From NCBI RefSeq assembly GCF_900113545.1, contig NZ_FOPS01000004.1, positions 1-64,000 of the forward strand: DNA of 64,000 bases, given 5' to 3'. Shown here piece by piece: positions 46,347 through 49,002 of the stretch. Made by a program: the position numbers and the translations under genes. Each line of letters opens with the position of its first letter. Position 1 is the first letter of the stretch. The stretch is from Neisseria elongata subsp. elongata. GTDB lineage: Bacteria; Pseudomonadota; Gammaproteobacteria; Burkholderiales; Neisseriaceae. The notes below the pieces were generated by a model. It did not search any database and was not told the DNA's origin. It saw only the letters and a list, made by a program, of their open reading frames with translations.

Positions 46347-46503
46347 AAACACCGCTGCGGCGCAAACGGCGGGCGGTGCTGCTAAGGCATAGTGCCGATA
46401 ATGAAGCAGGCCGTCTAAAAGCCATAAACGGTTTTTCAGACGGCCTTTTTATATTCGGACGATTAGGCGGTTACCGAATATACGCTTTCAGACGGCCTTT
46501 CTT
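46347..46503. repeat. Tandem duplication at the ybdD-chuY junction, copy 2
   Basis: It matches copy 1 closely. It contains a non-functional copy of the ybdD 3' end (CGCTGCGGCGCAAACGG onward), a DUS hairpin with one broken arm, and the genuine end of the chuY-like gene with an intact DUS in its last codons. Confidence 0.88.
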
Positions 46504-47095
46504 TATCCGCAATCAGTTTCGCCACGGCGGTGGCCAAGCCTTTCCTGTCCATGTAGTCGCGCGGGATTTCGTCGATGGCGGTGTGCAGCGTATAGCTGTC
46601 GCTGCCGCTGTTGCCCAAGCCGCACGGGCGCACTATCGTCCAATGCAGGCCGCTTTGGCGCAGGTGGTTTTCCGCTTCGGTTTTGGCCTGAACCGCTTCG
46701 CCCAATGCCTGTTTGAACATTGCGTTCGTGTTTTCCCACTGTTCGCCGCAGCCCATGCTGGTTACGAGTATCAGGCGGGCTTGGGGGGCGTGGGCGGCCA
46801 CCGCGTCGATGATGTTGATGTTGCCGGCCGCATCGCTGCGTACGCCCGCTTCGTTTTTGCCGCCGACAAAGCTGACGACGGTTTGCGGTTTGCTGTCGCG
46901 GATGACGGCGGCGCAGGCTTGCGCGTCAAGCACGTCGGCCGTTGCCGTATTTGCGCCGTGTTGTTTGAAAAACGGGTCTTCGGCCTGTTCGGGGCGGCGC
47001 AGGACGGCGGTAATGCCGTCTGAAAAACCGTCTGCCGACAGGCGCGCAATCAGTTCGCGGCCGCTTTTTCCGTTTGCACCGAATATGGTCAGCAT
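46463..47095 (-). CDS. NAD(P)H-binding protein, ChuY-like (anaerobilin reductase candidate)
   Basis: 210 residues. The Rossmann motif is MLTIFGANGKSGRELIARL at the very N-terminus. VVSFVGGKNEAGVRSDAAG and LVTSMGCGEQWENTN follow, with a late VRPCGLGNSG. Size and fold match ChuY of the E. coli chuWXY operon, which reduces anaerobilin with NAD(P)H. Placement two bases after the HutW-HutX frame makes that role likely. By sequence alone it is a generic atypical SDR. An AT-type DUS lies inside (47011-47022). Confidence 0.78.
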   Translation of the reverse strand: MLTIFGANGKSGRELIARLSADGFSDGITAVLRRPEQAEDPFFKQHGANTATADVLDAQACAAVIRDSKPQTVVSFVGGKNEAGVRSDAAGNINIIDAVAAHAPQARLILVTSMGCGEQWENTNAMFKQALGEAVQAKTEAENHLRQSGLHWTIVRPCGLGNSGSDSYTLHTAIDEIPRDYMDRKGLATAVAKLIADKERPSESVYSVTA

Positions 47096-47097
47096 GG

Positions 47098-47625
47098 TTA
47101 CGCCCCTTTTTCTTCGGCAAACAGCGCGCGCATGGCTTCGATTTGGTTTTGGCGCAATTCGCCGTTTTCATCGCGGCCGACATAAATCTTGAACATCGCG
47201 CCGCCGCTGCGGTTGATGAAGTTGAGCGAAACCGTGTCTTTGCCCATAAACGGGCGTTCGACCAAATAAACCGCCGTGCAGTTTTCATAATAAATATGGC
47301 CGTGGATGCCGCCCGGTTCGGCTTCTTTAAAATTGTAGAAGCCGCGTCCCACGCTGCCGTCCGGCAGTTTGCCGGTTACTTCGGCAATCACGTCGGGCGT
47401 ATGGGCGATAAACGTAACCGCTTCGTCCCATTTGGCGATTGCCTGCATGATTTCGACAAAGCGTCCGCCATCCGTTTTCTTCACCGTGCCGGCGGGCAGG
47501 CAGTTGATGACTTCTTCAAAACTGCATTGGAAGCGTCCGGCCAGCATTTCGAGAATCTGGCCGGGATTTTCGGCCAACGAGTTGCGCAATACCGTTTGTT
47601 GTTCGGCAGACAGGGGGTTAGGCAT
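47098..47625 (-). CDS. hutX: HutX from an internal start inside the fused frame
   Basis: The ATG at 47625 is preceded by AAGGAG six bases upstream, inside the codons for Lys-Glu of the HutW tail. This is a better ribosome binding site than the one for hutW itself. The product would have 175 residues, the normal HutX length. The codon CAA (47631-47629), two codons before this ATG, differs by one base from TAA. The fusion could have arisen by loss of the hutW stop. Confidence 0.55.
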   Translation of the reverse strand: MPNPLSAEQQTVLRNSLAENPGQILEMLAGRFQCSFEEVINCLPAGTVKKTDGGRFVEIMQAIAKWDEAVTFIAHTPDVIAEVTGKLPDGSVGRGFYNFKEAEPGGIHGHIYYENCTAVYLVERPFMGKDTVSLNFINRSGGAMFKIYVGRDENGELRQNQIEAMRALFAEEKGA

Positions 47626-48930
47626 AGATTGCTCCTTTTCTTCGTTTGCGGGTAGGGCAAGCATCAGCTTGCGGGTTAAGGTGGGCGACCAGTAGCGGCC
47701 GCTGGTGTTTAAATGAATCAGGCCGTCCGAATCGGGTTTGCCCGTCAAACCGAGTTCCGCCCACTGCGCCAGCAGGGCCTGCGCGCGCGGTTGCCCGGCA
47801 AACAGGCGGCTGTTTATCGTTCCGGTTTCGATATCGTGCTGCAAACGGCCGAGCAGGTATTTGTTTCCGCTGTGGCGGCTCATGTAGGCGATGTTTTTTT
47901 GGCCGGCGGGCGTGGCAAGGTAACTGTCCAAATCGCTTTGCACCTGATAACTGTATCCGCCGCCGTTGCCGCCCGCGCCCGAACCGAAGGCCAGGCAGGC
48001 CATATTCGACTTGACCAGGCGGTTGTACAGGTTGCGTTCGCCGCGTTCGGGATAGGCGAAGTGGTTGTTGCTGATTTGCCGCCAGCCCTGTTGCGCCAAA
48101 TACTCGACCGTATAGGCATATTGCAGCGACTGCGTGTCGAAGCCGGCCGGCGGTGGAAACGCGCCTTTTTCTATCATGCGGTTGATGGGCAGGAAGGGAT
48201 AACAGTTGAAGGCGTAAGTATCGAGACCCGACAGCGGCAGGGCGGCCGCAATGCGCAAGTCATTATGCCAGATTTCATCATTTTGCCCCGGCAGGCCGAA
48301 AATCAAATCGGCCACAATTACGGCATCCAGCCTGCCCAGCTTTTCCAAATAGGCGGCCGCTTCTTCGCCGCTGTGTTTGCGCCCCAAACGGCGGCGGATG
48401 GCGGTATCGAAAGTTTGCACGCCGATGGAAATACGGTTTACCCCCGCATCGATGCAGGCCTGTGCCTTGGCTATATCGAAATGGCTCATGCGGCCTTCCA
48501 GTGTAAATTCGCAGTCGTCGGCCAGCGGCAGATAACGGTAGCAGGCTTTGATGAGGCGGACCAAATCGTCGGTCAAAAGCGCGGTGGGCGTGCCGCCGCC
48601 GAAATAGACGGCGCGGATTTTGCCGTTTCCTTGGCGGATTTCGGCTTCCTGCGCCAATTCGGCGATGATTTTATCGGTATAGGCGCGGCTGTAATCGTCT
48701 TTCCAGGCGTTGCGGTAGAAGCCGCAGAAAACGCAATGGTTGGCGCAGAACGGGATATGCAGGTAGGCCAAGGTATCTTCCTGCAAAACCGTTTGCGCCT
48801 GCTCGCGCCAAAGCCGCTGCCACTCATCGGACGGCACGTCGATGCCGCCCCACACAGGCATCAGTGCCTGCCGCTCGGGAAAAGCATCCGGTACGGCTTG
48901 CCCGTTGCTGATTTTTATTTCTCGTTTCAT
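47098..48930 (-). CDS. hutW: Fused HutW-HutX: radical SAM haem-utilisation protein joined to a haem carrier domain
   Basis: 610 residues. Residues 1-435 are a HemN/ChuW-type radical SAM protein with the cluster motif CANHCVFC (Cys62, Cys66, Cys69), YFGGGTPTAL, and ISIGVQTFDTAIRRRLGRKH. Residues 436-610 are a complete HutX/ChuX domain (LAGRFQCSFEEVINCLPAG, HGHIYYENCTAVYLVERPF). The join reads EKEQS-MPNPL. ChuW opens haem anaerobically to anaerobilin and ChuX binds haem. A free HutX may also be made from Met436, which has its own ribosome binding site. Upstream is a perfect FNR box. Confidence 0.9.
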   Translation of the reverse strand: MKREIKISNGQAVPDAFPERQALMPVWGGIDVPSDEWQRLWREQAQTVLQEDTLAYLHIPFCANHCVFCGFYRNAWKDDYSRAYTDKIIAELAQEAEIRQGNGKIRAVYFGGGTPTALLTDDLVRLIKACYRYLPLADDCEFTLEGRMSHFDIAKAQACIDAGVNRISIGVQTFDTAIRRRLGRKHSGEEAAAYLEKLGRLDAVIVADLIFGLPGQNDEIWHNDLRIAAALPLSGLDTYAFNCYPFLPINRMIEKGAFPPPAGFDTQSLQYAYTVEYLAQQGWRQISNNHFAYPERGERNLYNRLVKSNMACLAFGSGAGGNGGGYSYQVQSDLDSYLATPAGQKNIAYMSRHSGNKYLLGRLQHDIETGTINSRLFAGQPRAQALLAQWAELGLTGKPDSDGLIHLNTSGRYWSPTLTRKLMLALPANEEKEQSMPNPLSAEQQTVLRNSLAENPGQILEMLAGRFQCSFEEVINCLPAGTVKKTDGGRFVEIMQAIAKWDEAVTFIAHTPDVIAEVTGKLPDGSVGRGFYNFKEAEPGGIHGHIYYENCTAVYLVERPFMGKDTVSLNFINRSGGAMFKIYVGRDENGELRQNQIEAMRALFAEEKGA

Positions 48931-48960: not shown

Positions 48961-49002
48961 ATTCTGTGTAAAAAATGAGATATTGTTTTTGATTCATATC
49001 AA
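48961..49002 (-). promoter_or_regulatory. FNR-dependent promoter of the hut operon
   Basis: TTGATTCATATCAA at 48989-49002 is a perfect FNR box (TTGAT-N4-ATCAA). On the minus strand CAGAAT at 48966-48961 is a 4-of-6 match to a -10 box. It puts the transcript start near 48954 and the box centre at -41.5, the classic class II position. The leader would be 24 bases. Confidence 0.65.

Follow-up and report, generated by a model that had tools for sequence, protein, structure and literature searches.

The window (the whole 64-kb stretch of DNA that was analysed, from the genus Neisseria) carries on its minus strand an open reading frame (ORF) in which the radical SAM haem-degrading enzyme HutW is joined to the haem carrier HutX, followed by a chuY-like gene and preceded by a candidate FNR box. 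The features of the locus are as follows.

48989–49002, minus strand: perfect FNR-type box TTGATATGAATCAA, a candidate regulatory site starting 72 bases 5' of the hutWX ATG
47098–48930, minus strand: fused hutWX ORF, 610 codons (610 aa), running uninterrupted from ATG at 48930 to TAA at 47100–47098
47653–48888, minus strand: HutW domain, residues 15–426, radical SAM haem-degrading methyltransferase (TIGR04107, PF04055)
48724–48747, minus strand: CxxxCxxC 4Fe-4S motif (C62/C66/C69)
47632–47637, minus strand: internal Shine-Dalgarno sequence AAGGAG, translated as Lys432-Glu433 (AAGGA in 32 of 33 fused frames)
47623–47625, minus strand: ATG of Met436 inside the frame, at which a free 175-aa HutX (47625–47098) is proposed to start
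47122–47589, minus strand: HutX/ChuX domain, residues 448–603 (TIGR04108; ChuX structure 2ovi_A, E = 6.4e-30)
46463–47095, minus strand: chuY-like putative anaerobilin reductase gene (5guy_A), 2 bases after the hutWX stop

The original prediction was of a whole HutW and a whole HutX in one frame with no stop between them, and both profile models bore this out, each scoring above its curated cut-off. TIGR04107 (HutW/ChuW; cut-off 400 bits) matched the window ORF with 516.8 bits over model positions 2–418 of 419, a practically full-length HutW, and TIGR04108 (HutX/ChuX; cut-off 110 bits) matched it with 197.7 bits over model positions 1–154 of 154, a full-length HutX, with Pfam in agreement on both domains. 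By its profile score and CxxxCxxC motif the first domain is HutW, for which an anaerobic activity converting haem to anaerobilin is predicted. All three radical SAM cysteines (C62, C66 and C69) were kept in each of the 33 intact fused frames described below, as were H510 and H545 of the HutX half, which align with histidines of 2ovi_A and which we take to be positions with a haem role in ChuX. Mean conservation in these frames was 0.80 for HutW, 0.81 for HutX and 0.61 for linker residues 428–445. A predicted structure of the fusion was set aside (mean pLDDT 44, from an alignment of three sequences only).

The fusion is genuine and conserved: we found 33 intact fused frames, the window's included, 16 of them in Neisseriaceae and 17 in Pasteurellaceae. 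Within Neisseria, an intact fusion was present in 15 of 46 genomes (counting the window's own, whose 91% relative, L041, is a Neisseria sp.), and the same 46 genomes included one frame-broken copy (G008) and two partial remnants (G039 and G022). The family sample of 83 Neisseriaceae genomes added a single fusion outside this genus (G048), and in seven genomes of the genus g10 a distant HutW (40–43% identical) was followed, after stop codons, by a separate hutX. The fused frames of G031 and G048, 626 and 647 aa long, have one stop codon in the matched range, located beyond the HutX domain. In family f171, which we assign to Pasteurellaceae because its genome G859 and the Bibersteinia trehalosi genome of L042 share HutX coordinates, the fusion occurred in 18 of 140 genomes, with one copy (G829) frameshifted in HutX; the remaining 11 of the 29 matching genomes held HutW alone (G859 and G959), an adjacent pair (G857), a distant HutW (four genomes) or HutX alone (four genomes). 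Across a phylum-wide sample of 398 genomes, HutX scored above the cut-off in 33, three of which had it in frames longer than 600 aa, namely the window's own genome, G789 and G737, all Neisseriaceae or Pasteurellaceae. In evenly drawn class samples, a whole-protein search (E 1e-40, at most three candidates scored per genome) matched one of 369 genomes, the window's own, and TIGR04107 at E 1e-60 matched two of 274 genomes; neither search added anything new. A sequencing or assembly error joining two genes has nothing in common with the other frames: the original prediction had named a sequencing error here, with separate genes in all close relatives, as fatal to it, but such an error has nothing in its favour beyond the single window and is refuted by the 32 other intact fused frames, many of them in single-contig assemblies, so that its probability is practically nil.

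Two side observations concern the Neisseriaceae. The family holds two lineages of the HutW/HutX system, that of g10 (L032–L038) being much more distant. At three loci (L016–L018, in G008, G039 and G022) HutW is decaying, and in G008 the HutW frames are broken with the HutX half and the internal start still open.

The junction in the window reads GAA AAG GAG CAA TCT ATG, with AAGGAG (47637–47632) lying six bases 5' of the ATG of Met436 (47625–47623), as first described, and CAA directly after it. The intact internal start for HutX that had been proposed on this basis is conserved at the DNA level, with the Lys codon always AAG, the start always ATG or GTG and the spacing fixed. The junction AAG-GAN-NNN-NNN-start, that is AAGGA-N7-ATG/GTG, was found in 32 of the 33 fused frames, whose relatedness means that such counts are not independent events; the start was ATG in 31 and GTG in one (L088), and the sole frame without the motif was L087 of genome G881. 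The linker varies in length and sequence on either side of the motif, and the spacing from AAGGA to the start codon is constant. Among the 32 frames with the motif, Met was replaced only by Val encoded by GTG, which is also a start codon. Searching the 33 fused ORFs for AAGGA-N5-8-ATG/GTG returned 32 in-frame matches, every one at the junction, and a single match out of frame. The junction Lys codon was AAG in all 32 frames with no change on the tree; across the 34 fused ORFs, AAG accounted for 170 of 940 Lys codons (those at the junction counted), and its share was 3–33% in the 13 other alignment columns with at least 25 Lys. As three of 114 near-invariant two-fold columns also lacked synonymous change, the junction AAG alone is worth about 0.03, and it gains its weight in combination with the constant spacing, the presence of a start codon and the junction-only motif search. 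From these alignments, the Lys-Glu/Asp of the linker is a translated Shine-Dalgarno sequence, and internal initiation at Met436, yielding free HutX, is likely.

Were the fusion the only product, the Shine-Dalgarno sequence and ATG would be either a relic or the trace of a K-[DE]-x-x-M pattern kept for the protein. Lys followed by Asp or Glu, counted back from the start codon, occurs in 32 of 33 frames, which protein constraint could produce equally well, and at least one other in-frame Met had equal or stronger predicted Shine-Dalgarno pairing in 22 of the 34 ORFs, the internal site being the best among all in-frame Mets in 12 only. However, constraint on the protein leaves both the AAG in 32 of 32 frames and the replacement of ATG by GTG unexplained, and a relic would be expected to decay, given that 93 of the 114 near-invariant two-fold columns changed synonymously two to six times on the same tree. 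We therefore regard a fusion-only output as unlikely. Another possibility is that AAGGA acts as a pause signal that makes translating ribosomes stall between the domains, letting HutW fold ahead of HutX, without any initiation there; the motif is purine-rich and sits exactly between the two domains, but neither the constant distance to a start codon nor the GTG replacement follows from pausing, and this explanation is very improbable. For 16 chosen representatives of the 33 frames, the RNA spanning −30 to +30 around the internal start had a median rank within the most open 2.6% of codon positions; two of the 16 (L087 and L089) were not unusually open there. An open, A-rich stretch is expected of any flexible linker.

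The predicted anti-Shine-Dalgarno pairing in the window was −7.2 kcal/mol at the internal site versus +0.6 kcal/mol at the ORF's own ATG, which has no Shine-Dalgarno sequence there. This difference would also suit free HutX as the main product with the fusion as a minor one, as would G008, where the HutW half is split over several broken frames and both the HutX half and its start remain open. Nevertheless, HutW is as conserved as HutX, several Pasteurellaceae ORF starts pair better, and passages of one study report that the ChuW protein of Actinobacillus pleuropneumoniae, which we take to be fused, was detected and increased under iron starvation (PMC12507848), so that a mainly free HutX appears improbable. 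The reading we favour is initiation at Met436 alongside synthesis of the full-length fusion. The fusion was the only HutX above the cut-off in 25 of the 33 genomes, and the signal was lost in none of these 25; the two changes to the start signal (G881 without AAGGA and G958 with GTG) both fell among the eight genomes with a second hutX. That an altered start signal goes with a second hutX is suggestive only, with two genomes and related sequences.

The CAA codon after AAGGAG had been proposed to be a mutated TAA stop, which a comparison of hutW/hutX junctions at that codon was expected to reveal. The 33 fused frames are silent on this point, since an open frame is stop-free by definition, and the question is therefore decided by unfused relatives. 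The nearest relative with adjacent but unfused genes is G857 (L095), in which hutW ends in CAA TAA, followed by GGATTTTT and the ATG of hutX; the TAA stop and the hutX Shine-Dalgarno sequence AAGGA overlap as TAAGGA, the two genes are in different frames, and the distance from the stop to the hutX ATG is five bases greater than that from the CAA position. The hutW stop of this pair thus lies elsewhere, and an origin of the CAA codon from a TAA stop is not supported. Because the G857 stop lies inside TAAGGA and out of frame with hutX, a frame slip best explains the joining of hutW to hutX and is preferred to a change from TAA to CAA. The TAAGGA is retained, out of frame, in seven fused frames of one clade.

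In the HutW tree, G857 was nested among the fused frames, and a single clade of the 33 fused frames plus L093 and L094 was not rejected (AU p 0.272, lnL 2.99 lower). In a quick HutX tree, all fused frames lay to one side of a weakly supported branch (68); the stand-alone HutX of genus g501 fell outside the fused frames and G857. The G857 pair may resemble the ancestral state or have split later. The genomes G959 and G859 (L093 and L094) had HutW without HutX, and hutX and hutZ elsewhere in the genome. In a test of the direction of transfer between Neisseriaceae and Pasteurellaceae, the G+C content of each fused ORF was near that of its own locus. Other arrangements were also observed in Pasteurellaceae. 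The stand-alone HutW of Bibersteinia trehalosi is flanked by genes that by eye resemble pyruvate formate-lyase and its activating enzyme (L042, 477–5096), and hutX and hutZ adjoin each other elsewhere in the genome (L045). Seven genomes of g501 have a stand-alone hutX, which at the three loci viewed (L100, L101 and L104) follows an ORF that by eye resembles a TonB-dependent receptor, and three of the seven (G916, G919 and G921) carry the fusion as well.

We further considered the surroundings of the fused gene. The product of the downstream gene matched the solved ChuY structure 5guy_A (E 3.9e-16) and the ShuY-like 5ffq_A (4e-16), which makes anaerobilin reductase its putative activity. A same-strand ChuY match lay within about 1.3 kb 3' of the fusion in 33 of 34 fused loci; it overlapped the hutWX stop or was at most 2 bases away in 16 of 18 Pasteurellaceae loci, and was 2 to 1226 bases downstream in the 16 Neisseriaceae loci (partial matches in L006 and L007). 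No ChuY match was found in the 1.5 kb downstream of the fusion in G866 (L089). The FNR consensus is TTGAT-N4-ATCAA, and the perfect FNR-type box in the window has a probability of about 0.003 in 300 dinucleotide shuffles. Perfect boxes were located upstream of 21 of the 34 fused loci (4 of 16 in Neisseriaceae and 17 of 18 in Pasteurellaceae), two loci matched at 9 of 10 positions, and 11 of the 34 matched at 8 or fewer of 10. FNR control of hutWX is likely in the window and is not universal across the fused loci. Given the chuY match 3' of 33 of 34 loci and the perfect FNR-type box at 21 of 34, hutWX-chuY looks like a compact haem-degradation operon that is probably regulated by oxygen in most lineages. 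A search of the window for a Fur box gave no convincing match (13 of 19 positions, p about 0.21), and matches were stronger in some relatives. HutZ had no match in the window genome (G000) and none above the cut-off in any of the 16 fused Neisseriaceae genomes, six of which gave weak matches below it; it was found in all 18 fused Pasteurellaceae genomes. All 16 fused Neisseriaceae genomes encoded a PF01126 haem oxygenase, and the two Pasteurellaceae genomes checked had none. As a separate observation, the 10-base uptake signal GCCGTCTGAA occurs 103 times in the window, never in hutWX and once in the chuY gene (at 47015).

The components of this locus have known counterparts. In Vibrio cholerae hutWXZ, HutW and HutX orthologues are encoded in the same order and HutX is reported to deliver haem to HutW, but the genes are separate and accompanied by hutZ, whereas here they form one frame with chuY beside it (passages of the review PMC12670364). 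The chuTWXYUhmuV cluster of Escherichia coli O157:H7 has the same W-X-Y product order, matching the ChuY-like downstream gene here; unlike hutWX, its chuW and chuX are separate, and no fusion is mentioned in the relevant passages of that review (PMC12670364). In A. pleuropneumoniae, chuW (APL_1523/APPSER1_08325) adjoins the epimerase-like APL_1522 in the order seen here, with no chuX locus tag between them (PMC3091793), although the matching parts of the sources term it ChuW/HutW or coproporphyrinogen oxidase and leave a fusion unmentioned (PMC3091793, PMC12507848). From the adjacency of APL_1522 and APL_1523 we infer that this chuW is the fused form (PMC3091793). The gene is described there as iron-regulated (PMC3091793, PMC12507848), with the ChuW protein increasing under iron starvation and the transcript not changing significantly (PMC12507848, PMC3091793), and it appears in a table on adaptation to the pig lung (PMC3328466). 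Fusobacterium likewise pairs a W enzyme with a dedicated haem trafficking partner, HmuF, according to excerpts of PMC10404700, but HmuF is a separate, flavodoxin-like protein and not a fused ChuX-type carrier. Cas11b, which arises inside cas8b, is likewise a second protein that starts at an internal Met within a longer frame; the proteins are unrelated, and the product is experimentally reported there (abstract of PMC11899642) and only predicted here. For commensal Neisseria, a hutWXZ-like system is described without mention of a fusion in the matching text (PMC7643975). Our literature search found no description of a HutW-HutX fusion in matching passages, abstracts and sections. Members that carry a hutX fusion may be mentioned in the NCBI description of TIGR04107. 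HutW, HutX and internal in-frame starts are thus known, and the fusion with the old carrier start kept appears to be new, none having been found described in the material matched.

Taken together, the sequence shows that the fusion exists and is conserved, that the start signal has been retained, and that chuY and an FNR box are present. We propose that hutWX encodes a radical SAM haem-degrading enzyme carrying its own haem carrier at the C-terminus, and that a frame slip would have joined hutX to a hutW lying before it, the hutW stop at that time sharing TAAGGA with the Shine-Dalgarno sequence of hutX; this sequence and the hutX start codon would have survived inside the joined frame. Translation from the internal start would then give free HutX of 175 aa alongside the 610-aa fusion. 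For the window and most of the lineages sampled, we expect that hutWX-chuY would be turned on without oxygen through FNR binding to its box; tethered HutX would pass haem to the attached HutW, HutW would open the haem ring and free the iron, and ChuY would reduce the product. Direct hand-over of haem inside the fusion is plausible because HutX is reported to transport haem to HutZ when oxygen is present and to HutW when it is absent (passages of the review PMC12670364). Free HutX may serve as an additional carrier, a haem buffer or a supplier of an oxygen-dependent degrader encoded elsewhere, which would be HutZ in Pasteurellaceae and perhaps the PF01126 haem oxygenase in Neisseria. We consider this whole explanation, comprising the tethered carrier, frame-slip origin, dual output and an FNR-controlled hutWX-chuY, to be fairly probable. 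A further joint reading remains tentative and falls somewhat short of probable: one oxygen-controlled gene would yield both tethered and free carrier, the free form would serve HutZ in Pasteurellaceae whose only HutX is the fusion (G897 and the g347 genomes), and the cassette would have moved between the two families with its start intact.

Haem is toxic, so that hand-over without release is needed, and a natural carrier-enzyme fusion is good evidence that HutX and the oxygen-independent HutW work as a pair. The fusion also provides one polypeptide in which haem hand-over can be measured. The internal start, if used, would make hutWX a clean case of a gene merger that kept both old outputs, with a second product hidden by annotation as a single ChuW/HutW protein, and the likely origin of the merger can be read in the unfused relative G857, where the stop and the Shine-Dalgarno sequence share TAAGGA. 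If the joint reading holds, haem degradation with oxygen and without it would both be supplied by a single gene in those Pasteurellaceae in which the fusion is the only HutX.
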